A stretch of 64,000 bases of DNA from Siderastrea siderea (lineage: Eukaryota > Cnidaria > Anthozoa > Scleractinia > Rhizangiidae): assembly GCA_964030785.1 (NCBI GenBank), contig OZ034966.1, positions 2,543,701 to 2,607,700 of the forward strand, read 5' to 3'. The notes beneath the pieces were generated by a model that did not search any database, was not told where the DNA came from, and was given only the letters and a program-made list of their open reading frames with translations. Numbering within the stretch: position 1 is the stretch's first letter; each line of letters starts with the position of its first letter. The position numbers were made by a program, and so were the translations under genes. Shown here in pieces: positions 44,380-61,269 of this stretch.

Positions 44380-44406
44380 GCAACCATGGGCTATTTTGTT
44401 GTCACC

Positions 44407-45624: not shown

Positions 45625-45653
45625 GAGGGTGCGCCTGGCTGGAGCATCTTATC

Positions 45654-45803: not shown

Positions 45804-45981
45804 CTTTTTAAAGCACATGTCCCCTGACGAATGGGAACAATTGAGATGTGGACGATCCGTTTGATTTGGATGATTTTGTTTCTTGAACCAAAAAAAAAAG
45901 ACAGGTGCAAACATTTTCATTTTGTTTTATTTTCTCCCAAAAGAACACAACATGGGCTGTAACACGAGGTGATTAAAACAA

Positions 45982-46338: not shown

Positions 46339-46340
46339 GT

Positions 46341-47506: not shown

Positions 47507-47509
47507 CTT

Positions 47510-47686: not shown

Positions 47687-48018
47687 GGACGATTCGTCAA
47701 TAGACGTTGAAGAGCTTTGTTTTGTTTGATCACGTCTCGCGACTCTTTATAGCCTTGACGGGTGTTGCGTTTGAAATCTTGCCACCACCCACTTCCTTTT
47801 TGAGGTCGTTGTCTGTAATACTGTACATTATCGGTAATGCCTTTCAAGGCTTGAGCGCCTAATTTGCCTAAAGCGAGGCCAAACCCAGGCGCTGGACCCG
47901 ATAGAACCATACCCAGGCCATGGGCTATTTTATCCACCAAACGGGGTTTGCGACGCATTAATGCCCCTGCTCGTTGACGTCGTTTTCTTTGGGTGGTTCT
48001 TTTTCGTCGGACGGCCAT
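47674..48018 (-). CDS. Small basic virion-type protein (114 aa)
   Basis: Starts MAVRRKRTTQRKRRQRAGAL, again a basic tract with RRQRAG. Then a Gly/Leu hydrophobic helix (KIAHGLGMVLSGPAPGFGLA) and a basic tail. Function unknown; composition suggests a core or internal capsid protein processed after the AG or GA-L site. It overlaps the upstream membrane protein gene by 61 bases in another frame, and a GGATAAAAAG box (48051-48060) lies inside that overlap region. Confidence 0.65.
   Translation of the reverse strand: MAVRRKRTTQRKRRQRAGALMRRKPRLVDKIAHGLGMVLSGPAPGFGLALGKLGAQALKGITDNVQYYRQRPQKGSGWWQDFKRNTRQGYKESRDVIKQNKALQRLLTNRPWYP
47743..47752 (-). promoter_or_regulatory. TATA box of Arg-rich core protein 1
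   Basis: CTATAAAGAG on the minus strand, 57-66 bases before the start at 47,686, inside the upstream gene. Confidence 0.5.
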
Positions 48019-48629
48019 GGTTCTAGGAGTGTGGGACTGGAGGGGGGCGGCTTTTTATCCTTTTCCGTCCAATAGCTTTTCGACATGAAGGGACGAGCAC
48101 ATCCATCCACGTAACATGGCGCTTCCACGGGTTGGTACACAAAACGACGATGGTAATCTTGCACACACCGTTTGGGTAACGGAGGGGTGAAATCCACAAT
48201 GGTATCATCTAAGGTTTGCATCTTGATTAAAAATCGTTCCAGATCCTCCAAGGGAACACCCCGCACATGGGTTTTCAATTCGGTCAAGGCTTTGGCATAC
48301 GTGGTAAACGCAAACCGACTCATGGTCACTTTAAATCGGTATTGTTTAAAATCATTCCATCCTTTGACCACGGTCCCCACGGCCGCCAAACAGGCTACCA
48401 ACGTACTGTTTTCCAAAAGGGGCCCAGCAATCATGCCTGCAGCCATCAGGAGTAACGCCATGCCATTGAACAAGGCATTGATACACTTGTAATGATTCAA
48501 CATTTTTCGATAACACCACCATTGTTGATGATAAAATGCATACAAGGAATCCATGCGTTGTAATAATTCCGGGGGGAAGGGAATACCATGATGTTTCGAT
48601 CCATTCAATAACGACACAACGGTTTTCAT
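47958..48629 (-). CDS. Two-helix membrane protein, SLATT-like topology
   Basis: 223 aa. N-terminal helical part with YHQQWWCYRKMLNHYK, then two adjacent transmembrane segments (INALFNGMALLLMAAGMIAG and TLVACLAAVGTVVKG) with a short loop, followed by a cytosolic helical region (FAFTTYAKALTELKTHVRG) and a Pro/acidic tail. A paired helix followed by coiled helices resembles SLATT-type effector proteins; this is topology-based inference. Similar proteins occur in Polinton-like and giant viruses. I start at ATG 48,629 rather than the GTG two codons earlier. A GTTATAAACA box lies at 48681-48690. It could be a membrane or egress factor. Confidence 0.55.
   Translation of the reverse strand: MKTVVSLLNGSKHHGIPFPPELLQRMDSLYAFYHQQWWCYRKMLNHYKCINALFNGMALLLMAAGMIAGPLLENSTLVACLAAVGTVVKGWNDFKQYRFKVTMSRFAFTTYAKALTELKTHVRGVPLEDLERFLIKMQTLDDTIVDFTPPLPKRCVQDYHRRFVYQPVEAPCYVDGCARPFMSKSYWTEKDKKPPPSSPTLLEPWPSDEKEPPKENDVNEQGH
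48051..48060 (-). promoter_or_regulatory. TATA box of the 47674-48018 gene
   Basis: GGATAAAAAG on the minus strand, 33-42 bases before the start at 48,018. Confidence 0.55.
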
Positions 48630-48680
48630 CCTCACGGCGAAACACGGGACGAAGACGTTTGTACGCTGGGTGCTCCTCCC

Positions 48681-48690
48681 TGTTTATAAC
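48681..48690 (-). promoter_or_regulatory. TATA box of the membrane protein gene
   Basis: GTTATAAACA on the minus strand, 52-61 bases before the start at 48,629. Confidence 0.5.
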
Positions 48691-48734
48691 TGGTCACAAT
48701 GCTATTGGTCATGGTGACATTTCACGTCCTTGGG

Positions 48735-48995
48735 CTAATTGTTCTTGATCTTGTAACAGCATCCGTAAACGTCGTTGTAAATCTGCTTGACGCAAGGTGC
48801 GAGGCTGTCTGCCAGGACTCCAAGATCCTCGAGGGGTGGCTGGATTGGAGGCAGGACGTCGAGAAGGCCTTGGTCTCCCGACAAATACAAATCTTGGAAG
48901 GCGCTTATGGACATTTGATTGCTGGTGGACGCCCCAACCCCCGCAGGGGCCACGGTATCGTACGATTGCGGAGGTTGACGGTCATCATCTGCCAT
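48735..48995 (-). CDS. Small acidic protein of unknown function (86 aa)
   Basis: Starts MADDDRQPPQSYDTVAPAG, then SAFQDLYLSGDQGLLDVLPP, ending CVKQIYNDVYGCC. A PPxSY-type motif near the N terminus might recruit WW-domain or ESCRT proteins; speculative. The first ATG after the TATA box at 49026-49034 is used. It follows the ATPase gene by 33 bases. Confidence 0.5.
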   Translation of the reverse strand: MADDDRQPPQSYDTVAPAGVGASTSNQMSISAFQDLYLSGDQGLLDVLPPIQPPLEDLGVLADSLAPCVKQIYNDVYGCCYKIKNN

Positions 48996-49025
48996 GGTCG
49001 CTCTCTTTTTCCTGTTCAAATGGTG

Positions 49026-49034
49026 CCTTTATAG
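49026..49034 (-). promoter_or_regulatory. TATA box of the small acidic protein gene
   Basis: CTATAAAGG on the minus strand overlapping the ATPase stop region, about 31-39 bases before ATG 48,995. Confidence 0.6.
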
Positions 49035-49682
49035 TCGTTTTTGATAGGTGCGAGTCCATCCTTCGTCTTTTAACAGGTGACTCAACACACGTTGTTGATC
49101 GGAGGAGGCGGGGTGTAAATCCAAGACCAAATACCCATACGGTCGTGTGGTGGCCTGATGAAATGTCTCCAACGTGTCTTTCCAAGTGGTAGGAAACGAT
49201 TGAAGCATGACATTGCGTACCCCTAATTGATCTCGGGGGTTCTTGAACGCTACAATGTAATGGGCATTGCGGGAAATACTTTTCGCATAGCGACCCACGG
49301 GAAACATGTCTTGGCACAAGTATAGGACGGTCACCCCTTGATGATGCGAATGTTTGGTGAATAAATCCAAAACGCGTTTATCGTGACTCCCTTCATCCAT
49401 TAAATCATCCAAGACCAGGACCCCATGTCCTTCAGGAAACCATTGGACCAACGCCTCATGATCGGGAATGCCTTCGTGAAACACGATCCCTTGATTTTGC
49501 ATGCTTCGAAATCGATCTTGCCAGGCCCCATAACAATAATGTCGTTGGGTCGGTGGGGTGTGAAACAACTCTGGGTTGTCTACCAAGAGTTTTTCCGTGA
49601 AGACGGTTTTACCACATCCCGAAGGTCCCACCACCAAGATAGAGGAAGGAGTATGAAAACGAAACGGTTTCCCCGTTTGCAT
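49029..49682 (-). CDS. A32/FtsK-HerA-like DNA packaging ATPase
   Basis: 217 aa. Walker A GPSGCGKTVF near residue 20, Walker B GVLVLDDLMDE, a sensor Gln in LYLCQDMFP, and a C-terminal YGYLVLDLHPASSDQQRV segment: the standard order of the genome-packaging ATPase of Polintons and their relatives. Length is typical. It uses ATP to move DNA into the capsid; this is known for the family. No damage seen. The promoter (AATAAAAAGG at 49713-49722) abuts the tRNA-like gene and its T-run, so Pol II and Pol III signals overlap here. Confidence 0.9.
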   Translation of the reverse strand: MQTGKPFRFHTPSSILVVGPSGCGKTVFTEKLLVDNPELFHTPPTQRHYCYGAWQDRFRSMQNQGIVFHEGIPDHEALVQWFPEGHGVLVLDDLMDEGSHDKRVLDLFTKHSHHQGVTVLYLCQDMFPVGRYAKSISRNAHYIVAFKNPRDQLGVRNVMLQSFPTTWKDTLETFHQATTRPYGYLVLDLHPASSDQQRVLSHLLKDEGWTRTYQKRL

Positions 49683-49699
49683 GATGATACTACCCAGTT

Positions 49700-49709
49700 A
49701 AAAAAAAAA
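49700..49709 (-). terminator. Pol III terminator (T10) after the tRNA-like gene
   Basis: Ten T on the minus strand, 13 bases beyond the tRNA 3' end. A run of four or more T is enough for Pol III termination. Confidence 0.65.
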
Positions 49710-49712
49710 GGC

Positions 49713-49722
49713 ACCTTTTTAT
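49713..49722 (-). promoter_or_regulatory. TATA box of the packaging ATPase gene
   Basis: AATAAAAAGG on the minus strand, directly adjoining the tRNA-like 3' end and 31-40 bases before ATG 49,682. Confidence 0.55.
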
Positions 49723-49804
49723 TGGAATGGGTGGGACTCGAACCCACGACCCAATCGCTATCTTGGATCAAGTCCAAAGGCTCTACCAACTGAGCTACCA
49801 CTCC
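49723..49804 (-). tRNA. tRNA-like gene with unusual anticodon/variable region (candidate anticodon TTG)
   Basis: 82 nt. Acceptor strands GGAGTGG and CCATTCC pair over seven positions (one G-T). D-arm GCTC-AGTTGGTA-GAGC and T-arm GTGGG-TTCGAGT-CCCAC are perfect and contain normal internal promoter boxes. The middle is odd: the best hairpin TTTGG/CCAAG has loop ACTTGAT, giving anticodon TTG (Gln) but with C at position 33 instead of T, and 14 nt follow before the T-arm. That would be a long variable arm without an obvious stem; alternatively the middle is rearranged. No CCA encoded beyond CCA at the end. A T10 tract follows. It lies between protease and ATPase, same strand. Could be functional, a decoy, or a relic. 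Confidence 0.6.
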
Positions 49805-49834
49805 GACACCGTTTTTTCCAACGAACTTTTTTAT

Positions 49835-50374
49835 TTAAGCATTACATTGATGATACGGATGACAACAAAGTTGATACCATCTGGCTTCTTGACCTACAAT
49901 CAATTGTTGAAGGCGTTGACCCGCTTGATGGTCATTCCTGACATAATCATAATCCGAAAACTCATTTAAAAAATCTTGCAAGGTCCGTCCACGGGCTTTG
50001 GCTTTCAAGTACAACAAGGCGTAATCACCACAACTCTTGCTTGAAATGGCTTGGAGGGACTTGCCATTGGTCACCACATACTTCCAATGGTTGACAATCC
50101 AATCTCGTAACGGGGTAGCTTGCACGTACGTGTCCATGGGCAAAGCATAACTGTCCAGGACTTCACACACCTTTCCATCCGTCCACACCGCTAACCAATG
50201 TTGTCCCGGTTGATCGTGTGGGTCGGTATTCACAATGTACCCTTGAGGGGCAGTCTTGACAGGCCTCTTGGGTAAACGATCACAGGCCACTGTCCCGTAA
50301 AATACCGGTTTCAATTGCGGGTCGTCTCGGGCTAAATAATCCAACTGCACATTATTCAAGGCCACATGTTCCAT
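49835..50374 (-). CDS. Adenain-type maturation cysteine protease
   Basis: 179 aa, Ulp1/adenovirus-protease fold. Catalytic elements in order: His in GQHWLAVWT, Asp in EVLDSYALP, oxyanion Gln in SLQAISSKSCGDYALLYL and the nucleophile Cys in SCGDY. Length is somewhat below adenoviral protease (about 204 aa), normal for Polintons. Its start overlaps the stop of the MCP frame by one base (TGATG), which would allow coupled translation. It is expected to process internal capsid proteins; the RRQRGG-type sites of the small basic proteins are candidate targets. Intact. Confidence 0.88.
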   Translation of the reverse strand: MEHVALNNVQLDYLARDDPQLKPVFYGTVACDRLPKRPVKTAPQGYIVNTDPHDQPGQHWLAVWTDGKVCEVLDSYALPMDTYVQATPLRDWIVNHWKYVVTNGKSLQAISSKSCGDYALLYLKAKARGRTLQDFLNEFSDYDYVRNDHQAGQRLQQLIVGQEARWYQLCCHPYHQCNA

Positions 50375-51772
50375 CAGTGCTGGTAAATGTTATACAACAC
50401 GGCTCCGTTCCTGTCAATCTCCAGCAAGTTCTCAAATTCTCCATACACGAGCACGGTTATATTGACACCGGGTGCGGCTCCAAATTCCAAGACCAGTTGT
50501 AAATCGCCTGTTTGCTTGGGGTTGAGGTTTTGACTGTCAGCACATCCATTGGCCACATTGTCAAACATGTACAAGGTACAATTTTTAGCTTGGCCCCAAT
50601 CCAGCAGTTCTACCATGTTGCCTTTCTTTTTACACCAAGCACCACTGGCTTGCAGAAAACGGAAGTAGCCTAGATTATCTCGGGTGCCATTGTTGTGCAC
50701 TAACTGTAGGGTTTCATAAGGGTATTCTTCTCCTTTGACAATCTGTCGAATGGAGGTCAGACCAAATTTCTGGAAACAGAAAGGATCTCGGGTCACATCT
50801 CCATTGAAGGCACGGCTGTCCAGTAACCCCACAATCAATCGGTCAGGTATTCTGTTTTGAAACAGGTTCGGGATATCAAAGCGGACCAGGTTGCCTTGCA
50901 TGCTGAAGGTCCGGATTTCACTGCGGACGGTCGGGTAAGCCGCCACTTCTCCTTCATTGTGTCTTTTTTCAGATAAACTCTGGTAGATGGCGTCATTCAA
51001 ACGCAGTTGGCAGAGATGAAACCGTAGTTTGACATCCCCTTCCATCAATCGGCCAGCTAGAGCCACTCCATTGAAAAACAGGCTGGGGCCATTGAAATGA
51101 AATTTCATCTTGATTTCGATGCCAGGCACCAACAGTTTGCCAGTGTGAAACACTTCCAAGTGCGGGGTAAACACCAGACTGTGGGTAAGACCTCCAGCAT
51201 ACTTCTCCACTTCGTCCACAGAGGTATTGAAGGCTGCTTTATGATTAGCACTCAGATCTTGCCAATGTTGATGGTTTCCTGCTTTGTCTGTGTTGGTGGC
51301 AGTCCATTGGGGTGGGAAATCCACTTGATTGTACCAGCCTTGGGGTCCTAACACAGTCTTGCCATCTTCTCGATCATAATTCAGCAAGGTTTCCAGGTAG
51401 GCTTTGTAATGATAGGTGTCGGATTGTGGACTGATCAACGTGCCATTCAAATTCAAGTCAATTTGTTTGATGATGGAATGGGCCAAATTGTTGACGGGCC
51501 ACAATTTTTGAGCGGCGTCCAAGTCATCGTTCGTTCTTTTGCAATCTCAATTCCATGGTAAAGTAACTGCGTCCCAAATCCACAAAATCGTCCAACCCCG
51601 GAATGATGAATTCCATGGGATTGATACCCGTGGTGGTGGGTTGGATGGTGACCATGCGATAGGCATTGATGCTAATGTCGGTCGGTGGCACCTTGAAAAT
51701 CCGTAATGCAGGGTTGACAGTCCCTTCGGAACGCTCGTGAGCCGGGGCGGTTTGCGTACTCACGTCAGGCAT
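50374..51772 (-). pseudogene. Double-jelly-roll major capsid protein, split by a frame change
   Basis: Two frames together cover one MCP of the family often annotated as F54H12.2-like. Frame 1, 51772-51524 (82 aa): IFKVPPTDISINAYRMVT, PMEFIIPGLDDFVDLGRSY, ending at TGA 51524-51526. Frame 2, from about 51,545 to 50,374: PVNNLAHSIIKQIDLNLNG, AYLETLLNYDRED, and the long second jelly roll to the C terminus. The family normally reads through this point, so one base separates the two frames at 51,520-51,545. Everything else looks intact. Options: inactivating mutation, sequencing error, or +1 frameshifting at CGA-TGA. A TATAAAAA box (51818-51825) precedes the start. Total length about 465 residues. 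Confidence 0.85.
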
Positions 51773-51774
51773 GT

Positions 51775-51999
51775 TTAACGTCGTCGTCGAGTGGTACCCC
51801 GTCGTCGTCGTGAGGGGTTTTTATAGCGTCGTCGTGCTAAACGTTGTCTCAAATCAAACCCGGGGACTCTCATCACCTCGGGACTTAACCATCCACCACG
51901 TTGTCGTCGCATGAGTTTCCAAAATGGATACAGTCCACCCCATTGAGACAACCCTCGATCACTACGAATCCGTCGAGGTCGTGAAGGCACGGGATCCAT
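51775..51999 (-). CDS. Arg-rich small virion-type protein (74 aa)
   Basis: MDPVPSRPRRIRSDRGLSQW, then LMRRQRGGWLSPEVMRV, and a C terminus of Arg/Lys/Thr runs (SRRRRGTTRRRR). Strongly basic, likely DNA-binding core protein. RRQRGG-W matches the motif shared by other small proteins here. The frame opens with a GTG two codons before the chosen ATG. Two bases separate its stop from the MCP start. Confidence 0.65.
   Translation of the reverse strand: MDPVPSRPRRIRSDRGLSQWGGLYPFWKLMRRQRGGWLSPEVMRVPGFDLRQRLARRRYKNPSRRRRGTTRRRR
51818..51825 (-). promoter_or_regulatory. TATA box of the major capsid gene
   Basis: TATAAAAA on the minus strand, inside the preceding small gene, 46-53 bases before the MCP start. 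Confidence 0.6.
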
Positions 52000-52001
52000 G
52001 T

Positions 52002-52337
52002 TCACACTCCAAAAATATCACGTGCACGTTTGGTTTGTTTGGGAAACAAAGCACTGGCCACACGCACGGCGTCTTTCACGCTCTTATGACTCAAGGCTTT
52101 CTTGGCTTGTTTGGTGATTTCTTTTTTAATGACGTCTTCGGCTTTGCGTTTGATACCTCGTGTCAAACCCGTTTCCAATCCTCTCTTGATATTACTAGGC
52201 AGTTTTAAAGGATTTCGCGTGCTTTTAAGGCCTTGGAACCCCCCACGCAAGAGATCCGTCACCAACCCTTGTCCACTTTGACCCTGTTGATCATACCACT
52301 CGTCGGTCCGAAATCGTGTCAAACTTCCCCCACGCAT
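52002..52337 (-). CDS. Basic minor virion protein (111 aa), pVI-like context
   Basis: MRGGSLTRFRTDEWYDQQGQ, then SGQGLVTDLLRGGFQGLKS, a helical basic centre (GIKRKAEDVIKKEITKQAKK) and a C-terminal VRVASALFPKQTKRARD. MRGG-S fits the adenain consensus (M/I/L)xGG-x. Amphipathic helix plus basic tail between core and capsid genes recalls adenoviral pVI, but identity is not shown. The start is placed at the ATG after the TATA box at 52379-52387; the upstream GTG would fall too close to it. Confidence 0.6.
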   Translation of the reverse strand: MRGGSLTRFRTDEWYDQQGQSGQGLVTDLLRGGFQGLKSTRNPLKLPSNIKRGLETGLTRGIKRKAEDVIKKEITKQAKKALSHKSVKDAVRVASALFPKQTKRARDIFGV

Positions 52338-52378
52338 GGTGTCGTCTTCACGTTTGGTTTGTGTCACAGGACTCGTCT

Positions 52379-52387
52379 CTTTTTATA
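52379..52387 (-). promoter_or_regulatory. TATA box of the 52002-52337 gene
   Basis: TATAAAAAG on the minus strand, about 42-50 bases before the start codon, at the border with the upstream gene. Confidence 0.65.
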
Positions 52388-52393
52388 CCGTCA

Positions 52394-52585
52394 TCATCGT
52401 CTTCTTTTCCGAAAAGCGGCTTCCAACCCTTTTTTAGCCCCGTAACTCGCGGCACCACCCGCGGCACCCAACGCCACGGCTTTTCCTCCAGCGATCAAGG
52501 CAGGAATAAGGGCGGCCAGTGGGAATAAACCCCCTCGTTGCCTTCTTCTCCTTCGTCTCGTTCGACGCACTCTTGTCTTGGGCAT
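52394..52585 (-). CDS. Arg-rich pX/Mu-like core protein 2 (63 aa)
   Basis: MPKTRVRRTRRRRRRQRGG, then a hydrophobic Gly/Ala segment (LFPLAALIPALIAGGKAVAL) and a basic end (FRKRRR). Clear paralogue in design of 47510-47686. Resembles adenovirus pX-type precursor peptides: basic head, GG site, hydrophobic tail. It has its own ATAAAAAGGG box at 52613-52624. Confidence 0.65.
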   Translation of the reverse strand: MPKTRVRRTRRRRRRQRGGLFPLAALIPALIAGGKAVALGAAGGAASYGAKKGLEAAFRKRRR

Positions 52586-52612
52586 CTTGTGATTGGGGCA
52601 CTCCGTTGGCCA

Positions 52613-52624
52613 CCCCCTTTTTAT
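52613..52624 (-). promoter_or_regulatory. TATA box of Arg-rich core protein 2
   Basis: ATAAAAAGGGGG on the minus strand overlapping the stop codon of penton-like gene 2, 28-39 bases before the start at 52,585. Confidence 0.65.
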
Positions 52625-53670
52625 GTCTTTTTGAAGTGTAACGTGACAATGGTATGACCTTCACCAAACTTGACCAAGTCTCCTCCTCTACCAATCGTTT
52701 CAGCCACTTGAACGTGAATCATTTCCACCACCTCGTTACGAAGAGACATGTATTGAATGTGCAACGGTTCAAAGTACAGGTTGCCGCGTGCTTCTCGCTT
52801 GTACTGGATTTCACGTAACAAATCAGTCACGCGATTGCCCACCACAGTGCTGCCTGCCACGTCGGAGTACACGTGCAACGATCGTGTGGGTTCACCCACC
52901 ACCGCCCGAAATGCTACATTCAAGTTGGTGAAACGCCACCCACAACTCATACTCAATTGTAAATAATCCGGTAAAATGGAACGCACCGTCCAAAAGACCG
53001 CGTTCCCCTGACCGTCGGTGACATCGTTCCAATCATTGTCAGCGGGTTTTGTCATGTTGGGGATTTGATCCCCCATGAATTCTTGTTGTAAGTTTGGCCC
53101 CAAAATCAACACATTGTCAATTTTACGTAACCATCCCATCTTGAGAGCCAACTTGGTGTAGATGGTCAGGGCTGGCGTGTCGGTGCCGCAATGGCAGATA
53201 TTCGTGTTGTCGATGAGCAGATCCTCGCCTTCCCAACGAAACTTGACGTAGGTATGTTTGCCTTGATCATTGGTAAACCGACCACCTTGAACGGCCATTT
53301 GCATACGTTGTTGTTCCAAGTGAGCAATGGTGGCTTTCATGAAACTCACGCCATCCACCACCCAATCCAAATCTTTCACGTCATTGATGATGCTTCGCGC
53401 GGTGTCTACTCGCGAGGTCATTTCCCCGTCTTTTCCACCCGGTTTGGGATAGGTTTGGCCCCAGGACACCCCCATGACGTACCCATTTTTCTTCACCAAC
53501 TCATACAAATTGACGCGAGCATCCGGTAAGGAAATGGCACTCAACCCTACTTGCCATCCACCTCCTGTGAGCTGTAACGGTTGAGGTAAACGAATCTTGA
53601 AGGAATTGGCTTGGTTGTTGGGAAATTCACGTCGGTTGGCATGACTCGGTAACGTCACGTAGAACGACAT
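52621..53670 (-). CDS. Penton-like minor capsid protein 2
   Basis: 349 aa. Starts MSFYVTLPSHANRREFPNNQ and has RLPQPLQLTGGGWQVGLSAI, the shared jelly-roll opening. Later blocks LHVYSDVAGSTVVGNRVTDL, FEPLHIQYMSLRNEVVEMI and GEGHTIVTLHFKK are closely matched in protein 3 and loosely in protein 1. I start at the SFYVTL Met because all three paralogues share it; the frame extends 23 codons upstream from a TTG. A CTTTAAAAGGG box at 53698-53708 lies in the end of the upstream penton gene. Confidence 0.8.
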   Translation of the reverse strand: MSFYVTLPSHANRREFPNNQANSFKIRLPQPLQLTGGGWQVGLSAISLPDARVNLYELVKKNGYVMGVSWGQTYPKPGGKDGEMTSRVDTARSIINDVKDLDWVVDGVSFMKATIAHLEQQRMQMAVQGGRFTNDQGKHTYVKFRWEGEDLLIDNTNICHCGTDTPALTIYTKLALKMGWLRKIDNVLILGPNLQQEFMGDQIPNMTKPADNDWNDVTDGQGNAVFWTVRSILPDYLQLSMSCGWRFTNLNVAFRAVVGEPTRSLHVYSDVAGSTVVGNRVTDLLREIQYKREARGNLYFEPLHIQYMSLRNEVVEMIHVQVAETIGRGGDLVKFGEGHTIVTLHFKKT

Positions 53671-53683
53671 TTTGTCTTCTTCT

Positions 53684-54727
53684 TCACACCACGACTTCCC
53701 TTTTAAAGTGGAGGGTGAGGAGGGCATGCCCTTCACCAAATTTCACCAGATCCCCATTGGTTTCGGCCATCTGGGTTTCTACGATTTCCACCACTTCGTT
53801 GCGTACTGGGACATATTGAATATGTCGAGGTTCAAAGTGGGTGGTGTTTTGAGGCTGGTACTTGATTTCTCGTAAGAGATCCGTGATGCGACCCCCTACC
53901 ATACTGCTGGTCCCTACATCACAATACACGTGCAAAGGACGCGTGGAGGGAAATTCCAACGAGGGACGAAAGGTCTTGTTCAAATTCACAAACCGCCAAG
54001 GGCACGATAGACTCAATTTCAGATAATCCCCCTCCACTTTCCAAAAGAGGGGCTTGTTGGCAGCATCGCGGACATCCGTCGGGGTAGGAATGGTGGAAAT
54101 GCCTTGAAATTCTTGCAAGAGATTCGGGCCCAATCGATACTGGCCGGGGGACACTTGTTCAATCCATCCCATTCTCAGAGCCAAGGTTCTGCCCCATGAC
54201 ACGTGCGCTACTTGTCGTTTGTAATCCACATTGGTGGTATTCAACAACAAATCCCCTTCGGAGGTCCATTCAAAGGTCGGATACAATTTGATGCCATTGT
54301 CCTCCGCCCATTTGTTTTTGGGGGCGGTTTGTTTCGCACGGCTTTGCTCGTAACGGTACACCAGTTGATGAAAAAAGTGCGATCCCGTCGACGAGGCCAT
54401 CTCCTTTCTCATATCTCGACCGTAGACAGTGAGTTCGCGACGTTCATGGTACCACCGATCGTTCCCTTGATCGTCTTGGGCATACACCCGTTCGTGCCAT
54501 CGTACATACAACAGAGGATGGGAATCGCCCACGCCTCCTTCTTCCGTTATCACTGGAATGATGGGTAAGGATAAACTCACCATACCCACCATCCATCCTC
54601 GTCCCACAAATCGGATAGGTTTAGGCAATCGGTTTCTGAAATGATGACTCTTGTTCCCAGGAAACTCTTTGGTACTCGCATGACTCATCAACGTCACGTA
54701 AAACGAAGAGTTGGGGACGAACGTCAT
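53684..54727 (-). CDS. Penton-like minor capsid protein 3
   Basis: 347 aa. MTFVPNSSFYVTLMSHASTK, RLPKPIRFVGRGWMVGM, then LHVYCDVGTSSMVGGRITDL, FEPRHIQYVPVRNEVVEIV and GEGHALLTLHFKR. Adjacent tandem paralogue of 52621-53670 (13 bases apart). The middle differs in length and sequence, which suggests divergent surface loops. Follows the integrase gene by three bases. No clear TATA box was found directly upstream. Confidence 0.8.
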   Translation of the reverse strand: MTFVPNSSFYVTLMSHASTKEFPGNKSHHFRNRLPKPIRFVGRGWMVGMVSLSLPIIPVITEEGGVGDSHPLLYVRWHERVYAQDDQGNDRWYHERRELTVYGRDMRKEMASSTGSHFFHQLVYRYEQSRAKQTAPKNKWAEDNGIKLYPTFEWTSEGDLLLNTTNVDYKRQVAHVSWGRTLALRMGWIEQVSPGQYRLGPNLLQEFQGISTIPTPTDVRDAANKPLFWKVEGDYLKLSLSCPWRFVNLNKTFRPSLEFPSTRPLHVYCDVGTSSMVGGRITDLLREIKYQPQNTTHFEPRHIQYVPVRNEVVEIVETQMAETNGDLVKFGEGHALLTLHFKREVVV

Positions 54728-54730
54728 TGT

Positions 54731-55870
54731 TTAGTCACGTCGTCGTCGTCTTTTGGGTGGACTTGTCTCTTTGGGTGGGCTTTTCCTCTTGGGTGGTTGG
54801 AGAGACGTCACGTCTTGGCTTGCTATCCAACTATTGTACTTGTCTGGCCACCCTTTCCACTTGACCAACCAACGATCTTTTTGTCGCTTAAGTACCTTTT
54901 CGATCCGAAACACGTCGGACACATGGACTTTTTGTAAATCCTCTTCATAAAACGTACCTTGGACGGGGGTATCATCCCATTCGTGAATCTTATACGTGGG
55001 CACAGGGCCAGGGACCACACGATGCACCACAAACACTTCTTCGGTCCAACCGGGTAGATACCCTTTTTCAAAGGTACGATGAATCTTATTGAGACGTACA
55101 CGATCTCCGACTTTGAATTTAGGTTTTTTCTGACCTTTCAATCGTTTGCTGTACAATCGTTTCCACACGGCTTCATCGTTGTCCCACGTCACGTCTTGAG
55201 GGGCCATACCAATACTTCGATGACGGGTGGCATTATAGCCTTGCACCAACTCGGGTAAGACATTGTCAAATTTCAACGTGTTGGCGGCGGTGAAATAGCG
55301 GTACAAACGTTCTTTCAAGGTGCGGTTAAATCGTTCCACTATACTGGCTTTCGCATCCCCTTCCGTCGAAAAATGTTGAATGCCTTGCTCGTCAAGCCAT
55401 CGTTGAAAGGTCCGATTGTAAAATTCCTTCCCTCGATCCGTTTGCAATCGATTAGGGTGACGTCGTCCTTTCAAAATCTTGTCAAAGGCATGAACCAACG
55501 CCACCCCGGTTTTGTCTTTCAACGGTTGTACCCACGCATACTTGGACAACACATCCACGACGGTCAACAAGTATCGTATACCCCGATTATACTTGGCCAA
55601 GGGTTGCACTTCCACTAAATCCGCAACCCATTGATCATCTAAACCTCCCACAATCACGGGCAAGGTTGGAAAACGACGACGTCGAGGTTTATGCAACGTG
55701 TAGGCCAAATCCCGTTCCAAGACGCGTTGGGCTTTTTTCAAGGGGAGGTGATGGGCCTTGGCAAACCGTTGCACGCCTCCTAAACTGCCGGGGGCTCTAG
55801 GATCGTGGTAACGGGTCAACCATGATTGCGAGACATCGAGTTTGGTTCGTTTGGTCTTTCGAGGCGCCAT
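54731..55870 (-). CDS. Polinton integrase (rve core with C-terminal chromodomain)
   Basis: 379 aa. Retroviral-type integrase: catalytic Asp in QWVADLVEVQ, second Asp in RLQTDRGKEF, and Glu in ASIVERFNRTLK, with 33 residues between the last two. An SH3-like part follows (KFKVGDRVRLNK), then a chromodomain (IEKVLKRQKDRWLVKWKGWP, YNSWI), and a Lys/Arg-rich tail. The chromodomain may guide insertion to methylated histones, as for other chromo-integrases. Start at ATG 55,870, four codons after a GTG; the first 55 bases overlap the upstream gene in another frame. Intact, and consistent with the 6-bp duplication found. Confidence 0.93.
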   Translation of the reverse strand: MAPRKTKRTKLDVSQSWLTRYHDPRAPGSLGGVQRFAKAHHLPLKKAQRVLERDLAYTLHKPRRRRFPTLPVIVGGLDDQWVADLVEVQPLAKYNRGIRYLLTVVDVLSKYAWVQPLKDKTGVALVHAFDKILKGRRHPNRLQTDRGKEFYNRTFQRWLDEQGIQHFSTEGDAKASIVERFNRTLKERLYRYFTAANTLKFDNVLPELVQGYNATRHRSIGMAPQDVTWDNDEAVWKRLYSKRLKGQKKPKFKVGDRVRLNKIHRTFEKGYLPGWTEEVFVVHRVVPGPVPTYKIHEWDDTPVQGTFYEEDLQKVHVSDVFRIEKVLKRQKDRWLVKWKGWPDKYNSWIASQDVTSLQPPKRKSPPKETSPPKRRRRRD

Positions 55871-56187
55871 ACTTTCTGACACTCATCCAACAAGGTCGGT
55901 ATGGGAGGGATGGTGTTGGGATGCGCCTTTTGAATGATTCGATACCATCGCCACGCTTTCGGGTGGGATTTTAACCATAACACAAACACTACCCATCGAT
56001 ACAAGTTGAGGTCCACATGGGTTTCTTCAAAGACTTGAAGAGGAGGCATGTCCTCGGGACATGGGGGAATGGGTACTTTTTCACCTGGTTGGTAGTCATA
56101 TAACACTTGGCAAAGGGCTTGATGGCATTGCCATTGCACCAGGGACAACAAACCCTCCCACGCATAACACAACCACACAGACTCCAT
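55816..56187 (-). CDS. Unknown Trp-rich protein upstream of integrase (123 aa)
   Basis: MESVWLCYAWEGLLSLVQWQ, DMPPLQVFEETHVDLNLYRW, VVFVLWLKSHPKAWRWYRII, ending near MSRNHG. Rich in Trp and aromatic residues; family not recognised. Support comes from a TATAAAAGG box at 56225-56233, tight packing, and an open frame overlapping the integrase start by 55 bases. Confidence 0.5.
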   Translation of the reverse strand: MESVWLCYAWEGLLSLVQWQCHQALCQVLYDYQPGEKVPIPPCPEDMPPLQVFEETHVDLNLYRWVVFVLWLKSHPKAWRWYRIIQKAHPNTIPPIPTLLDECQKVWRLERPNEPNSMSRNHG

Positions 56188-56224
56188 GGCCACACTAATA
56201 AAAATTTTATTCTTACAACATCAG

Positions 56225-56233
56225 CCTTTTATA
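56225..56233 (-). promoter_or_regulatory. TATA box of the 55816-56187 gene
   Basis: TATAAAAGG on the minus strand, 38-46 bases before the start codon. Confidence 0.65.
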
Positions 56234-56381
56234 GATTTCACAAGTCAAAAAACTCAAAAGAGCGCGTGTATTTCATTTTACCGGCGCCCCGGTCGATCAT
56301 GCTCTTTTTTCCGGACCTGCTTTTTCATTTGTTTTTATCATGTATCATAATCATTGTTCATTAAAAACAGTTCGTGTGTCT

Positions 56382-57059
56382 TTACTTGGTCGTGTCTTGT
56401 CTTTGTTTTTTTCGGTTCTTGGGTTTCAAGGGTTTGTCGGCCCATTGAAAGAAAGGACATCGATCCTCGGGTGTTTCTTTGCATGTGAAATAAGGACGGT
56501 TGGGGTTGGCTTGGGATCGGCTGATTCGTAAGACCACGGGTTCTTCACGGTCACACACCAGGGTTCTTTTGAGATAATCAGGATGGAGTTTTTCATTAAT
56601 GATCTTGAGATAAGTGGCGATTTGATCTTGATGACAAAAGAGGCCACATTTCTTTTCTTGGCATTTGATGTAAGTGTCTCCTGTGGTTTGGGCTTGAAAG
56701 CAAGTTAGGTCTGTTTGATGCATAGGACAGACAACGGATTGACAAGCTTGTTCCATAGGCGGTAGTTGTACTTGATAACTAGCAGCAGGCGGATTTAACA
56801 AATTGAGAATATTGTCACCATTGAATAAGTCATCCATATTGATGAGCGGTGGTGGTGGCGGCGGCGGTACTGGTGGTGGTGGTGACAATGTGGTTGTTGT
56901 AGGTGTTGACGGTACTGGTGGTGGTGGTGAAGAAGGATCCACTTGGGGTGGTTTTTTGATTTTGATTTTTCTCTCTTTTTTGGACTTTTTCTCCGTCGGT
57001 GTAGGCGGTAAAGCAGTGACCATCTCTTCGAGTTGTTGCAAAGGTCTCTTCGTGGCCAT
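56382..57059 (-). CDS. Zinc-finger protein with C-terminal GRF-type finger
   Basis: 225 aa. N-terminal Lys-rich stretch (EKKSKKERKIKIKKPP), Pro-rich runs (residues about 40-72), then a first metal-binding cluster (VVCPMHQTDLTCFQ ... YIKCQEKKCGLFCHQ) and a second at the C terminus: CDREEPVVLRISRSQANPNR, YFTCKE, DRCPFFQWADKP, matching the GRF zinc finger pattern (C, then N-R-x-Y/F-x-x-C, then C-x-F-F-x-W). GRF fingers bind single-stranded DNA in topoisomerase III and APE2. A role in replication or recombination is likely but not proven. CCTATAAAAT box at 57101-57110. Confidence 0.65.
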   Translation of the reverse strand: MATKRPLQQLEEMVTALPPTPTEKKSKKERKIKIKKPPQVDPSSPPPPVPSTPTTTTLSPPPPVPPPPPPPLINMDDLFNGDNILNLLNPPAASYQVQLPPMEQACQSVVCPMHQTDLTCFQAQTTGDTYIKCQEKKCGLFCHQDQIATYLKIINEKLHPDYLKRTLVCDREEPVVLRISRSQANPNRPYFTCKETPEDRCPFFQWADKPLKPKNRKKQRQDTTK

Positions 57060-57100
57060 GGTGAATTGAAGAGAGAGAAAGAATGAAGAAAGAACACGCT

Positions 57101-57110
57101 ATTTTATAGG
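57101..57110 (-). promoter_or_regulatory. TATA box of the zinc-finger protein gene
   Basis: CCTATAAAAT on the minus strand, 42-51 bases before the start at 57,059. Confidence 0.65.
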
Positions 57111-57170
57111 CGATGATGACGTGATGTTGACGTGATCTTAGCTAGGATTGGTGGAGACAAAAAATAGGGG

Positions 57171-57755
57171 TCAACGGTCTGGGCTGTTAGGTATGTCGAT
57201 GCCCGCCCATTCACGCTCTCGCAACGTGTCACGCGCCCAGCCAAAAATGTTATCCACGTCTTCATGCGTCAAACCCAAAAGTTCATAGGTGAACGTACTA
57301 AATTGGTGTCGAAAAGACACGATTTCTTCTAAAATTTGTTCTGTCACGATGTCGGGGCTCGTGATGTGCACGATGAATTCGATGTCGTTAGGTTGCCAAC
57401 ACGGGACGTCCATGTGATATTGGGTCAGTAGATTGCGCCACGATTGATACACCAAATCCAAAGACAGATGGCGTAACCCTTCTTTGATGGCCTCATTAAT
57501 ATGACGCCTTTGAAGTAATACTTCTTCACTGTAAACGGGTTGAGTGGGTGGTTTTAGATCGTGCACGTGACGATGAATATGTTTGAGAATGGCCACGATC
57601 CAACATCGTTTCCATCGGCATTCGACCATTTCTTGATAAAAACGAGTGTTATAATCGATATTGCCGCTTGCAGTAAAAGGTGATTCCATTTTAGGGACTT
57701 GTTTGTTTTTGCTTTTACCAAAAACACGATTCCATGCACGCAATCGTCTCTCCAT
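57171..57755 (-). CDS. Unknown protein (194 aa) divergent from the PolB-N-like gene
   Basis: MERRLRAWNRVFGKSKNKQV, YNTRFYQEMVECRWKRCWIV, INEAIKEGLRHLSLDLVYQS, DNIFGWARDTLREREWAG. Mostly helical, mixed charge; family not recognised. The frame extends 25 codons upstream through a hydrophobic stretch, but the tatatata element at 57801-57808 lies there, so I start at 57,755. Shares a ~130-bp intergenic promoter region with the plus-strand gene at 57,884. Confidence 0.55.
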   Translation of the reverse strand: MERRLRAWNRVFGKSKNKQVPKMESPFTASGNIDYNTRFYQEMVECRWKRCWIVAILKHIHRHVHDLKPPTQPVYSEEVLLQRRHINEAIKEGLRHLSLDLVYQSWRNLLTQYHMDVPCWQPNDIEFIVHITSPDIVTEQILEEIVSFRHQFSTFTYELLGLTHEDVDNIFGWARDTLREREWAGIDIPNSPDR

Positions 57756-57800
57756 ACACTGAACAAATAAAAAGTGATGAAAAAGGATGAGTGGTGCCTG

Positions 57801-57810
57801 TATATATAAG
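57801..57810. promoter_or_regulatory. TATATATA element, likely promoter of the 57171-57755 gene
   Basis: tatatataag 46-55 bases before the minus-strand start at 57,755. Symmetric enough to serve either direction. Confidence 0.55.
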
Positions 57811-57837
57811 AAAAAGAAGCTGTCAATCAAAACAGTC

Positions 57838-57844
57838 TATATAT
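57838..57844 (+). promoter_or_regulatory. TATA box of the PolB-N-like gene
   Basis: TATATAT 40-46 bases before ATG 57,884. Confidence 0.5.
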
Positions 57845-57883
57845 CACCTCTCTATCTTTTCAACGCATCATTTTTTTGTTAGC

Positions 57884-58411
57884 ATGGCAAGTAACACCGA
57901 GTCCGACGATGATCTTAATGACTTTATGGATTTATGGGAACAGCAAGGTGGTGCTGTACCGCAACGACGCGACCATTATCAATTTCGACGTGTTAAATTC
58001 CGAGAACGTCAAGCCAAGAGCTATGGAATCACACGTACAAGCTATCACTTACGCGTGGAAAACCCGCCAGAGAGTTTTCCAGAAGGGCATGGCAATATTG
58101 TGCGCGCGTTTGAAGAAGGATTGGCGGATCAAATCGAAGATCTCACGCGTAATATGCCGGACAATGACAGAATACAAATCTATTTATCTTCCAACCGACT
58201 TCAATCGGCCCACACCTCAGCCAATGTAACTATCGGCGATTGGCGAGACCCCTTATCCGGGGCCCGCCGCATTTTGCATCAGATTAGTAAAATGTTGAAC
58301 TCAAATGAGAACTTTGAAGTCGACGACAGTTTGCAGTTGGATGTGACGCACATCACCATGCCAGATGGTGTAACACCTGTAGAGCTCGTTTCGAGACGGA
58401 AGAGGATATAG
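57884..58411 (+). CDS. PolB N-terminal-domain-like protein, polymerase domain absent
   Basis: 175 aa. QQGGAVPQRRDHYQFRRVKF, then NIVRAFEEGLADQIEDLTRN, DRIQIYLSSNRLQSAHTSAN, RRILHQISKMLNSNENFEVD and LQLDVTHITMPDG. In my memory of Polintons and adintoviruses, this order (DRIxIYL ... lead-in, repeated SN helix, then LxVxxIxxP-G) is the N-terminal region of the protein-primed family-B DNA polymerase, which continues for about 1,000 more residues. Here the frame ends SRRKRI at TAG and nothing resembling exonuclease or polymerase motifs follows. So either the polymerase was deleted, or the domain lives as a separate protein. The plus-strand gene is otherwise undamaged, with a TATATAT box. Confidence 0.5.
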   Translation: MASNTESDDDLNDFMDLWEQQGGAVPQRRDHYQFRRVKFRERQAKSYGITRTSYHLRVENPPESFPEGHGNIVRAFEEGLADQIEDLTRNMPDNDRIQIYLSSNRLQSAHTSANVTIGDWRDPLSGARRILHQISKMLNSNENFEVDDSLQLDVTHITMPDGVTPVELVSRRKRI

Positions 58412-58481
58412 AACTTTGTTCGAGCTGTTCACGTCGAATACAAAAAGAACCCCACGTTGAACACACCTTAATTATTTAACC

Positions 58482-59003
58482 ATGCCGACGAGTCACTACC
58501 ACATCTACAGCGGAGGAGCCATTGGCATCGACGAATATGCAGAACAATGCGCTAAAGAATATGGCATGCAGATGCATATTATCATACCACCCCAACACAG
58601 TCGAAGCAAATTTATCACACCACTCCGTCAACAAGATCTCAACGAAGCCGAGCCGCACTTAAAACGAGCCGGAGAAAGAAGTGGCAAACACTTGTTTACT
58701 CCAAATACGTTTTCACGCCATCTTCAACTACGCAATTTTCACATCGTCAAACCTGCCACCATCGTGTACGCTTTTGGTTATTTCCAACACACAAATGACA
58801 TTAACTACACAGCAGCACGTGACATTTACCATGACACCACCTTGAAAAGGCAAAGCATTCAAGGAGGAACGGGATGGACGGTGCAATTGGCTGTCGATCA
58901 GCACAAACAAATTTATTTTTACAACATACCAGAAAAACGATGGTACGAAAACCATCAAGATCAATGCAAGGATCACCCACGCTTCATAAACACAGCGCCG
59001 TAG
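58482..59003 (+). CDS. SLOG/Rossmann-like nucleotide-binding protein
   Basis: 173 aa. YSGGAIGIDEYAEQCAKEYG near residue 9 is the glycine-rich SGGAxGxD motif of the SLOG (DprA/LOG/YspA) superfamily; then HIIIPPQHSRSK, NEAEPHLKRAGE, LRNFHIVKPATIVYAFGYF and GGTGWTVQLAVDQHKQIYFY, the second GGT-type loop expected opposite the first. SLOG proteins bind nucleotides or nucleotide-derived ligands, and many act in stress or conflict systems. I have seen related proteins annotated as unknown in cnidarian Polinton-like loci. Function in this element is open: nucleotide signalling sensor, DNA-uptake-like ssDNA binding, or nucleoside processing. It occupies the place where PolB would continue. Confidence 0.6.
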   Translation: MPTSHYHIYSGGAIGIDEYAEQCAKEYGMQMHIIIPPQHSRSKFITPLRQQDLNEAEPHLKRAGERSGKHLFTPNTFSRHLQLRNFHIVKPATIVYAFGYFQHTNDINYTAARDIYHDTTLKRQSIQGGTGWTVQLAVDQHKQIYFYNIPEKRWYENHQDQCKDHPRFINTAP

Positions 59004-59123
59004 TAGGAACAAGACACCCCCCACCAGACACTTTGGCCGAAGTCAAAAGGCTCTTTCAAACCACCAGTTCTTTAGAAAACATTGTTGATAAAAACAGTGA
59101 TCTTTACAGTCACATTCAAGAAC

Positions 59124-59378
59124 ATGGCGACTGAAGACCACAACACCACTTTCGAACAAATGATGGATGACATCACTCAAAACGAAGATCTGTCATTCGA
59201 ACAAAAAATGAAACGCATTGGTCACTGCTTTAAAAAAGAAATGGAACGCATCAGTCGCGACTTTCAAACCCGCCTTCATCAAGACATGGAACACGAACTA
59301 CAATATCTCCGCACTCAACTCAAAGACATATGGAAACCTCACCTCACATGGAAACCCCAGTTACAATGGAAACGATAA
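59124..59378 (+). CDS. Small coiled-coil protein (84 aa)
   Basis: MATEDHNTTFEQMMDDITQN, EQKMKRIGHCFKKEMERISR, HQDMEHELQYLRTQLKDIW, then a Trp-Lys-Pro repeat (KPHLTWKPQLQWKR). Highly helical with heptad-like hydrophobics. Start at the ATG overlapping an upstream frame (stop 59,132-59,134). Unknown function. Confidence 0.5.
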   Translation: MATEDHNTTFEQMMDDITQNEDLSFEQKMKRIGHCFKKEMERISRDFQTRLHQDMEHELQYLRTQLKDIWKPHLTWKPQLQWKR

Positions 59379-59620
59379 AAACGGTGCATTTCCAAGAACA
59401 CGTGGTCCGTTACACTTACCAATACGATCCATCCGCCCCCCTAGTACAAACGTCACCCCTCATCGATGATCGATCTCATCACGTAACACCTTTCAGTATA
59501 AAAAGACAATACCTTAAAGCCAAACTTCATTCCACCCATCTACAACGCAAAGAACGACGACGACGTCAACATGGACTATGCCAAGAATTTGGATCCCAAA
59601 ACCTTCAACACCACTCATGA
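59366..59620 (+). other. Open frame running into the right terminal repeat, doubtful
   Basis: METIKTVHFQEHVVRYTYQY, then a basic end (KERRRRQHG). It overlaps the coiled-coil gene by 13 bases and the terminal-repeat gene by 50, and contains its TATA box. Possibly a real small protein; weak support. Confidence 0.3.
59497..59505 (+). promoter_or_regulatory. TATA box of the right terminal-repeat gene
   Basis: TATAAAAAG 66-74 bases before ATG 59,571, outside the repeat itself. The left copy has no equivalent box. Confidence 0.6.
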
Positions 59621-60029
59621 TTACATATTAGAACTGGTTCGACGAGGTCTACAAGCTGGTTATGATCTCGAGGACGTGACCGAGCACTACAAAGAATTGA
59701 TTCAAGATGAAGCCACCGCCATCATGAAAAGTACCCAACGCAACGAACTCCAAAAACAAATCCAAAAAGATTTGGACAATCTAGCCGTCATTGACAGAAA
59801 CAATACCATTGTCTTTCCTTTGGAACTAGCAGGACGCACCTACAAGGCTTCTGAACGAGACCAGTATTTTGAAGAAATTTTACAAAGGAGACTTGAACGA
59901 CGACACAAAGTTAACAAATTGCGTGAAAGTGTTCTCGGACATAACTTGGACGACATTACCGAACATGTCAAAACCATTCTTGATCACGACAAAAAAGAAG
60001 AAGAAGCCTTTACCAGCCAATTCAAATAG
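59571..60029 (+). CDS. Terminal-repeat gene, right copy (intact, 152 aa)
   Basis: MDYAKNLDPKTFNTTHDYIL, RRGLQAGYDLEDVTEHYKEL, QRNELQKQIQKDLDNLAVID, YFEEILQRRLERRHKVNKLR, ending TSQFK. Predicted nearly all-helical and highly charged, no domain I can name. It starts four bases inside the right terminal inverted repeat. The left copy is frameshifted and a truncated paralogue is at 43146-43448. Being in the repeat, the two copies can be homogenised during replication; the single-base difference suggests that has not happened since the damage. Confidence 0.65.
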   Translation: MDYAKNLDPKTFNTTHDYILELVRRGLQAGYDLEDVTEHYKELIQDEATAIMKSTQRNELQKQIQKDLDNLAVIDRNNTIVFPLELAGRTYKASERDQYFEEILQRRLERRHKVNKLRESVLGHNLDDITEHVKTILDHDKKEEEAFTSQFK

Positions 60030-60075
60030 AAACATCCATTGAATTCATAGCCATTTCTGGATCAAATCCATCGAC

Positions 60076-60423
60076 GTGGAGTTGCCGGCCACCATTTACG
60101 AGCACATTCTTGACCTCCATGAACCAGCAAGCAATCCGCCATCTCCTCCTCTGTTGTCGACCTCGTACTTGACGTCTTTCAGTGGCATCGCCAAAACGTT
60201 TAAGGCGTCCACGCTTCTGTTTTCCTTGACAGATAACATATCAGGTGGTAAAAACGGCCATGAAAATGTTGGTGAATCAACTGAATCAGCAAGTAATCCG
60301 CCATCTCCTCTTTTGGACATGTGTTGTTGCGTACGAGGTTCTGGTTATACCATAACGACGATGTCACGTCTACATACCATATCTGCTCGTTACTCTGTTG
60401 ACAGCCTCGCGGTAAATTTGTGA
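60076..60423 (+). other. Open frame of 115 codons in right terminal repeat, doubtful
   Basis: Right copy of the frame at 40154-40501. It starts 46 bases after the stop of the 59571-60029 gene, so it could be a second cistron, or its former extension. No family recognised; the opposite strand is open too. Confidence 0.25.
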
Positions 60424-61082
60424 CGCACCATCGCCCTGATAATTGCTCTCGTATGCCAATTCCTTTTAGTTTGGGCGTATCAACATCGACATACCAGTTT
60501 CATCGCCTTCCATAAGGAACAATTGCATGTGCTTCTTCCAAAGTTGGCAGAAAAATCATTTGTTATCCTGGTGACTTTGTTCTTCTCCCAATATGTTACG
60601 ACGTGTTGCATTGACACAAAGGACATGTCTTGTTATTCCATTTCTGCACTCACCACCTCAAATTGATGATCGGTATTGACGGTACACCACTCCGTCATGG
60701 CTTCCACTTGTCTCTTGCAGGTCCCCCAACCATGTTCTCCTAACACAGAGCTACCACCTCGGTGACTTCCGTCTTGCAGGACACACCACATCACAGGTCT
60801 CGCCAATCTCTTCCTTTAGACTGGTTTCGTTTGATGGGGAACTTGACTCCTTCATGTGGAACCGATGTACACCAGGTACCTATCGAAGCGAACTCATTTA
60901 CCAGGATCGCTGCTTGTCAGAAGATCTAGAAAGACTGTCTGGTCGTCTGTCTTGTCTTCCTTGATGATGAACTTGAAAAAGAACAAAGTTGTTGATCTTG
61001 TTATTAAACTTGTTGAAAAGAATCTCTCTGTCTTGTTTTTGAACTCTTATCCCCCCTATACTCAGCGGTTACCCATCACAAA

Positions 61083-61103
61083 CCACGTGACCTCGTCACG
61101 TGA
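61083..61103. promoter_or_regulatory. Paired TCACGTG motif in right terminal repeat
   Basis: Mirror copy of 39442-39462, about 170 bases from the right terminus. Confidence 0.35.
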
Positions 61104-61269
61104 CCACACCCACTTATCTAAAGTGACCTTTGACCCCTTCTCCCATTGGTCCATTCCCTTGACCGGGATCACATGATAAAAAGGACTAGCACTAGTCTCT
61201 TATTGGTCCAAAAAGTGAGGGGGGTGGGTCTTTTCGATTCATTTCACCAGAGTGTCGCCCCTTACTACT

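Follow-up and report, generated by a model that had tools for sequence, protein, structure and literature searches.

Polintons, also known as Mavericks, are bounded by terminal inverted repeats (TIRs) and a 6-bp target-site duplication (TSD), and encode a protein-primed family-B DNA polymerase (PolB) alongside a chromodomain integrase, an ATPase, a protease and capsid-type genes. Here we describe a 22-kb element from the scleractinian Siderastrea siderea that shares these features, the ATPase, protease and capsid-type genes being predicted ones, bar one: it has no PolB, and what appears to be the terminal-protein (TP) domain of such a polymerase is encoded alone, by a gene of its own at the other end of the element. 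The element lies within a 64,000-nucleotide stretch of the 831-Mb S. siderea assembly (C1:2543701-2607700) that we call the window, and in which positions are given below. Its TIRs with a target duplication of the 5-6-bp class and its retroviral-type integrase are those of a Polinton/Maverick, whilst the protein-primed family-B polymerase by which these elements are also recognised is absent. For this reason we file it as a Polinton derivative and not as a canonical Polinton.

Adenoviruses are not known to have an integrase. They resemble the element in having a TP that is separate from the polymerase (PMC11071308, in the sections available), but their polymerase is encoded in the adenovirus genome, whereas the element has none. 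Like virophages and other satellite viruses the element would rely on another virus for part of its replication, although its helper would be a relative rather than a giant virus; Mavirus, according to the partial sources available, has its own PolB, whereas the element keeps virion genes and a primer without a polymerase. Most Polinton-like viruses (PLVs) also lack PolB, and SLATT genes, to which one gene of the element is similar, are widespread in the PLVs of cryptophytes (PMC12220804, in its available parts). However, PLVs carry other replication proteins, none of which is recognised in the element, and the element keeps a retroviral-type integrase. Meldviruses without recognisable PolB and integrase (PMC11071296, available in part) share with it adenovirus-class virion genes and the lack of PolB, but integrase and TP are kept in the element, and the example in a legend of that paper has a primase-helicase and a tyrosine recombinase. 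The titles and abstract openings of the literature searched reveal no family of Polintons that lacks a polymerase and has a free TP; this literature covers few subscription papers. Nor is such a family named in the accessible parts of PMC8097293, PMC4028283, PMC12721341 and PMC6431247. At least one large survey (Barreat and Katzourakis, PMC8097293, as far as accessible) required a PolB adjoining the integrase, so that polymerase-less families would have been filtered out unseen.

The TSD, CCTAGA, is found at 39270-39275 and 61270-61275, and the TIRs (1734 bp left, 1703 bp right) differ by 2 mismatches and 33 gap positions. The features on which the argument turns are:

39276..61269, no strand: complete polymerase-less Polinton-type element, with 6-bp TSD and inverted repeats
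39276..41009, no strand: left TIR, with its own open reading frame (ORF) at 40535-41005
59567..61269, no strand: right TIR, with its own ORF at 59571-60029
56382..57059, minus strand: GRF zinc-finger protein (PF06839, E 2.8e-7)
57171..57755, minus strand: 194-aa gene without assigned family, divergent from the TP gene, which it adjoins in 30 of 30 loci, the copy in the window among them
57884..58411, plus strand: predicted free-standing TP domain of PolB, 175 aa, by homology to the PolB N-terminal domain
58482..59003, plus strand: SLOG (DprA/YpsA-like) gene (phrog_768, E 8.4e-10)

The ORF found in both TIRs has no assigned family; a diverged third copy lies inside the left part, at 43149-43523 (175 bp, 82%).

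The initial annotation, made from the sequence alone, took this for a capsid-bearing Polinton without PolB and proposed a profile search of 39276-61269 for a hidden one. None was found, and the description is borne out by Pfam scans of 256 ORFs and by comparison of the window with ten PolBs and with the cognate PolB described below. No DNA polymerase was matched in 132 element ORFs of at least 64 aa, for which any match better than E 0.034 can be excluded (best 25 of 65 families); two of the 134 ORFs of this size straddle the element's edges and were omitted. The same was true of 124 ORFs of 44-63 aa (all 21 families), a scan that omitted the left TIR, the right TIR being the same sequence. 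As a control, PF03175 matched six of eight pieces (69-70 aa) of the PRD1 DNA polymerase in the same procedure. The ten PolBs, taken from the same genome (stretches L043-L052; 894-1480 aa from the first Met), reached E < 0.01 in tblastn against the whole window only at 57875-58357, where all ten did so (E 7e-4 to 5e-16), and the single match of the cognate PolB lay at 57845-58366 (E 2e-66). Together, these scans and searches rule out a hidden or decayed PolB. The element has no recognisable vOTU, exonuclease or palm domains. Weak matches of four of the ten PolBs at 40013-40123 (E 0.033-0.098), and PHROG rows for an RNA polymerase (phrog_414, E 0.015) and a clamp loader (phrog_5846, E 0.062), were not taken as PolB.

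Nor was an alternative replicase, as expected of a PLV, found: the Pfam families listed include no polymerase, primase or helicase, with two exceptions, PF00910 RNA_helicase (P-loop) on the ATPase ORF (E 1e-3) and PF23343 REP_ORF2-G2P (E 0.13). The element might nonetheless encode an unrecognised replicase of its own amongst its unassigned genes of 171, 178, 194 and 215 aa, the third of which stands alongside the TP in all 30 loci. These genes are short for a replicative polymerase, however, those of 178 and 215 aa are also found in PolB-bearing relatives and none of the four has a significant profile match, and we regard this as the least probable of the explanations considered here. The GRF-finger and exonuclease-like proteins, which had been offered as possible replication proteins, find no support in this role: GRF genes occur in both of the PolB-bearing relatives that we read, and the exonuclease-like gene in one of them.

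What the PolB queries do find is the 175-aa protein, whose likeness to a PolB N-terminus and clean end had already been remarked upon and are upheld here. It matches the N-terminal domain at all ten PolB loci (25-29% identity, E 7.5e-11 to 2.3e-18), ahead of a motif that we take to mark the vOTU boundary. Its match to the PolB at C5:27144398, the cognate PolB (a 1340-aa frame, 1331 aa from the first Met, with DTDS, a vOTU motif and PF03175 at E 5e-40), is at 71% identity over residues 1-161, after which similarity ends, before the vOTU. On these alignments, the protein appears to be a free-standing homologue of the PolB N-terminal (TP/D1) domain, with the cognate PolB as its apparent closest relative. 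Published structural work identifies this domain of PolB as the TP that primes replication. A D1 domain is expected to consist of a sheet of four strands and two helices, resembling the little finger of Y-family polymerases, and to be joined covalently to the 5' ends of DNA. In the predicted structure, Ser140 and Ser149, which are conserved in the aligned PolBs, lie between helix 2 and strand 4; their loop has no Gly or Pro, one of which is expected near the linking Ser or Tyr of a D1 domain, the nearest being P160 and G162. BLASTP against the PRD1 TP gave a best E of 2.9 and NCBIfam has no match for the TP or SLOG proteins. Two abalone herpesvirus proteins found by Foldseek against viral models (E 2e-4 and 6e-4, TM 0.37-0.39) were not used, the TP model being weak. 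The lengths of the TP and SLOG ORFs are unremarkable alone: 1.18 frames of at least 170 codons are expected in simulated sequence, with 17 seen in the whole element.

Free TPs are found across the genome. A search with the TP (150 rows, the best 150 of 1438 candidates being scored) gave 101 rows, at 97 places, with 58-100% identity and 49 rows with 30-34%. Amongst the matches listed, the TP lies in a frame of no more than 239 aa at at least 92 places and in longer frames at five, one of which is full length; of these five, the ones on C3 and C1 have no counterpart in the PolB rows at 75% or more to the cognate PolB. Thirty loci of 3.5 kb (L059-L088, of which L059 is the copy in the window) were inspected, some 1.5 kb being read on either side of the TP, and the whole length for the window copy only. 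The gene order GRF, 194-aa gene, TP is seen in 30 of 30; the TP is free-standing in every one and joined to PolB in none. It is followed by SLOG in 21 loci, by an exonuclease-like fragment and the TIR ORF in seven and by neither in two. Parts of the window TIR (158-390 bp, 83-99%) are present in 18 of the 29 other loci. A PolB-like stretch of 22 residues at 465-530 of L080 is flanked by SLOG and the TIR ORF and runs on the other strand from the TP, and another is found at 2887-2955 of L064.

The TP is without a stop in 28 of the 30 copies, with three kinds of C-terminus after residue 161 (20, 7 and 1 of 28), all of which begin just beyond the same domain boundary. Comparison with the window TP gave dN/dS values of 0.15-0.26 in 15 of 17 cases, which are not independent of one another, the remaining two involving four differences or fewer; the other 12 of the 29 copies were dropped on account of a different length or a stop. 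Because the TP is free-standing in all 30 copies, and because these copies differ mostly at silent sites, the window element would seem to belong to an amplified polymerase-less family and not to have arisen by recent deletion. The latter was to be revealed by a comparison of sister copies, and is ruled out by their sharing the same arrangement. The element could also be viewed as derived by deletion and no longer able to replicate as a virus, its copies arising via the integrase or host replication and its TP being otherwise employed, for example in end binding. The lack of a polymerase fits this, as does a change of frame in the window's capsid gene, but the 92 or more free-TP places, the three tails placed just beyond one domain boundary, the low dN/dS values and the nearly identical TIRs do not, and we consider it unlikely.

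Candidate helper PolBs exist in the same genome. PF03175 gave 204 matches (74 of 2638 candidates scored), often two per gene, and many of the open frames that contain them are 860-1482 aa long; the remainder of the cognate PolB found three places at 75-100% identity and others at 49-57% (41 of 2836 candidates scored). In one PolB-bearing relative (element A, on C1; L057, L056 and L044), genes for the integrase (92% identical to that of the window), two pentons (89 and 85%), capsid (91%), protease (95%), ATPase (97%), SLATT-like protein (86%) and phospholipase A2-like protein (PLA2, 96%) stand in the same order as in the window and are followed by PolB; a SLOG gene (39%, E 1e-33) lies at the end opposite PolB, and the GRF gene is 39% identical to that of the window. 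The more distant element B (L047, L054 and L055) has the order exonuclease-like gene, PolB, PLA2, together with a SLOG-like gene (24%, E 3e-7). In the window, it is the third penton-like gene that stands between the exonuclease-like gene and PLA2, which puts the PolB slot there at about 43.9-46.0 kb. This slot appears now to hold the third penton-like gene, with TP and SLOG at the opposite end of the element. The earlier placing of SLOG in the position of PolB was thus mistaken: SLOG is present in both PolB-bearing relatives and the slot is at the other end, ruling it out as a PolB replacement. The remaining features of the element are:

41330..42730, no strand: subterminal region, pieces of which are 68-92% identical to DNA upstream of the cognate PolB gene
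42790..43219, no strand: tandem repeats, two 43-45-bp pieces at 42.9-43.2 kb being 86-91% identical to repeats in the TIR of element A
43427..43942, minus strand: 171-aa protein, previously called exonuclease-like, 43% identical to the gene adjoining PolB in L047; no Pfam match
44281..45459, plus strand: third penton-like gene, 24% identical to penton 1, occupying the PolB position of the syntenic L047
45982..46338, minus strand: PLA2 (PF08398, E 3.8e-11)
46341..48018, minus strand: three small genes (215, 178 and 114 aa) common to PolB-bearing relatives (tblastn)
47958..48635, minus strand: SLATT-like protein with a hydrophobic stretch by hydropathy (PF18181, E 2.1e-4, below the curated cut-off)
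49029..49682, minus strand: packaging-type ATPase (PF04665 Pox_A32, E 9e-4, below cut-off), 97% identical to L056
49723..49804, minus strand: tRNA-Gln gene, between protease and ATPase (Rfam tRNA, E 1.1e-8; ARAGORN)
49835..50374, minus strand: adenovirus-type protease (PF00770, E 0.0028, below cut-off), 95% identical to L056
50374..51760, minus strand: presumed major capsid protein (MCP) gene, 91% (body) and 95% (N-terminal part) identical to L056; no profile match
52621..54727, minus strand: two tandem genes, presumed penton-like, 44% identical to each other and 85-89% to L056
54731..55882, minus strand: retroviral-type integrase (PF00665, E 3.3e-13, over cut-off) with chromodomain (PF00385, E 7.3e-6), 92% identical to L056

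No Pfam family was matched by the presumed double-jelly-roll MCP and penton genes, whose labels draw on identity and synteny to a PolB-bearing element. All structural genes had been reported as present; capsid-type genes are indeed found, but in the window copy the MCP gene switches frame between 51527 and 51546, both parts being in one frame in two PolB-bearing relatives. The integrase has no match in phage records, the predicted structure of the 171-aa protein is unusable (pLDDT 35) and PLA2 is 92-97% identical, over at least 100 aa, at seven of the ten PolB-bearing loci. Pieces of at least 150 bp matched by blastn in 16 stretches (L043-L058) cover the window only at 45969-52588 and 52618-56212, from which it follows that both ends of the element have been exchanged or have diverged. 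The first seven bases, AGTAGTA, are common to the element and element A, the ends of A being inferred from its inverted repeat. In element A, a tRNA-like gene with an odd anticodon loop (L056 7597-7684, plus strand) also lies between protease and ATPase, and element B has a protein-kinase gene (L054 9486-9998, minus strand; PF00069, E 5.6e-29), flanked by the SLOG-like gene and the TIR.

The close match of the capsid-type, ATPase, protease and PLA2 genes to element A (85-97%), together with one free TP that lies 3.8 kb from a PolB, would be consistent with a divided virus, in which TP-bearing and PolB-bearing elements move as partners and not as satellite and helper. However, the PolB-bearing relatives own a fused TP and a full virion module and so would not need a partner, making this highly unlikely.

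The presence of capsid-type and integrase genes, a separate TP, no polymerase and dozens of free-TP relatives suggests to us instead that the element, having kept its predicted priming domain separately, is a satellite copied by the polymerase of a related element, a reading to which we give a probability of about 0.6. Of the ideas put forward in the initial annotation, that of a helper would seem to fit best. Three things are required for protein-primed replication: a TP, a polymerase and ends that match. We envisage that the free TP starts synthesis at the TIRs of its own element, in the manner of other TPs; that it is accepted by a PolB acting in trans, once the vOTU protease of that PolB has severed it from the TP to which it was fused; and that the copy is packaged by capsid proteins of the element or of a relative and integrated by the element's own integrase. 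The likeliest donor of PolB would be the cognate lineage, given 71% identity in the TP domain. Cleavage by the vOTU has been proposed to release the Polinton polymerase from its TP (PMC11071308, section 9, available in part), and a satellite that borrows its polymerase is favoured by the element having its own ends and a predicted TP, which a released polymerase could accept as in adenoviruses. The fuller proposal, in which these are a large family of Polinton satellites whose primer was split from the polymerase and captures the vOTU-released polymerase of autonomous Polintons, own virion and integration genes being retained, we hold to be evenly balanced between true and false; under it, the TP would be the only recognised replication gene kept.

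The free TP may, alternatively, be mainly an interfering decoy that competes for the polymerase or ends of PolB-bearing Polintons, the element being a virophage-like parasite that lowers replication of its helper. The closeness of the free TP to the TP domain of a single PolB lineage would agree with this, as would the rarity and mostly broken state of that lineage, amongst the matches listed, when free TPs are common. PolB in trans would still be required, though, and the TIRs, integrase and virion genes that the element retains are needless for a pure decoy, leaving this distinctly improbable.

Several observations weigh against a satellite of this kind. The replication, packaging and trans-complementation of the element are steps that we infer from its sequence, and the capsid frame of the window copy is interrupted. 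The helical extensions of published stand-alone TPs are weakly predicted in the window TP, and a Foldseek search with the TP model gave no match below 0.001, Cas7 chains ranking first. Short PolB-like stretches lie away from the TP at two sister loci, L080 (E 2e-6 over 22 aa) and L064 (E 1e-3). Only one full-length, stop-free cognate PolB is listed (C5:27144953), the two others (75-77%) being interrupted or partial, so that an intact cognate helper is rare in the assembly amongst these matches. At least one free TP adjoins a PolB, that at C11:24235688 lying 3.8 kb from C11:24239474 (frame of 1369 aa, 49% identical to the cognate); this is the one case in 92 of a PolB within 25 kb of a free TP amongst the PolB matches listed, and the PolB lists being incomplete (74 of 2638 and 41 of 2836 candidates scored), more such neighbours may exist. 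Blastn finds no match to the TIR of the element in L089, where the end of the PolB element lies outside view, and the TIR of element A matches the window in short internal repeats only. The free TP and PolB at C11:24235688-24242824 possibly form one element with both.

The SLOG-like gene of the initial annotation proved well founded. At 25-31% identity (best E 1e-13) it matches 11 phage records, a number that includes duplicates, with 14 columns invariant across it and seven phage sequences, and whilst Pfam PF02481 falls below cut-off, profile and conserved motifs mark it as a genuine member of the SLOG superfamily. Two of the best phage matches sit within very large genes, one annotated as a virion RNA polymerase. 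As to a possible defence pair of SLOG and SLATT, the hits of SLOG in PADLOC were ShosA (E 7e-4, over 26 residues) and PsyrA (E 0.053), with no match for the SLATT-like protein, which at 21.8 bits against a curated cut-off of 26.3 we call SLATT-like only. A 2022 survey found SLOG only in tailed phages and giant viruses (PMC9503650, in the part available), and we found no literature joining Polintons and SLOG.

In the surrounding DNA, the element interrupts a reverse-transcriptase element (RVT_1, E 1.4e-5, in the right flank; RT_RNaseH, E 9e-4, in the left; both below cut-off). Amongst the genes in the flanks are those for a phosphatidylinositol transfer protein and a Rieske protein, from which the host is likely to be an animal. 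An ALOG-domain protein at 37138-37830 (minus strand; PF04852, E 2.3e-21) adjoins the interrupted retroelement and is perhaps its recombinase part. Protein, alignment and pattern scans of viral contigs gave no relative of the element: 3 + 32 pattern stretches were unconfirmed by tblastn, and 12 further loci had no match at E 0.01 to 20 element proteins.

Polintons are treated as self-synthesizing on account of their own polymerase. Here, in one genome, at least 92 free-TP places stand against one full-length cognate PolB frame among the matches listed, offering a case in which nature has parted primer from polymerase within a lineage that fuses the two. It becomes testable whether, after vOTU cleavage, a Polinton polymerase will take up a primer supplied in trans, a step implied by adenovirus evolution. 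If our reading is true, the element would be a DNA satellite with protein-primed replication whose defining feature is its primer.
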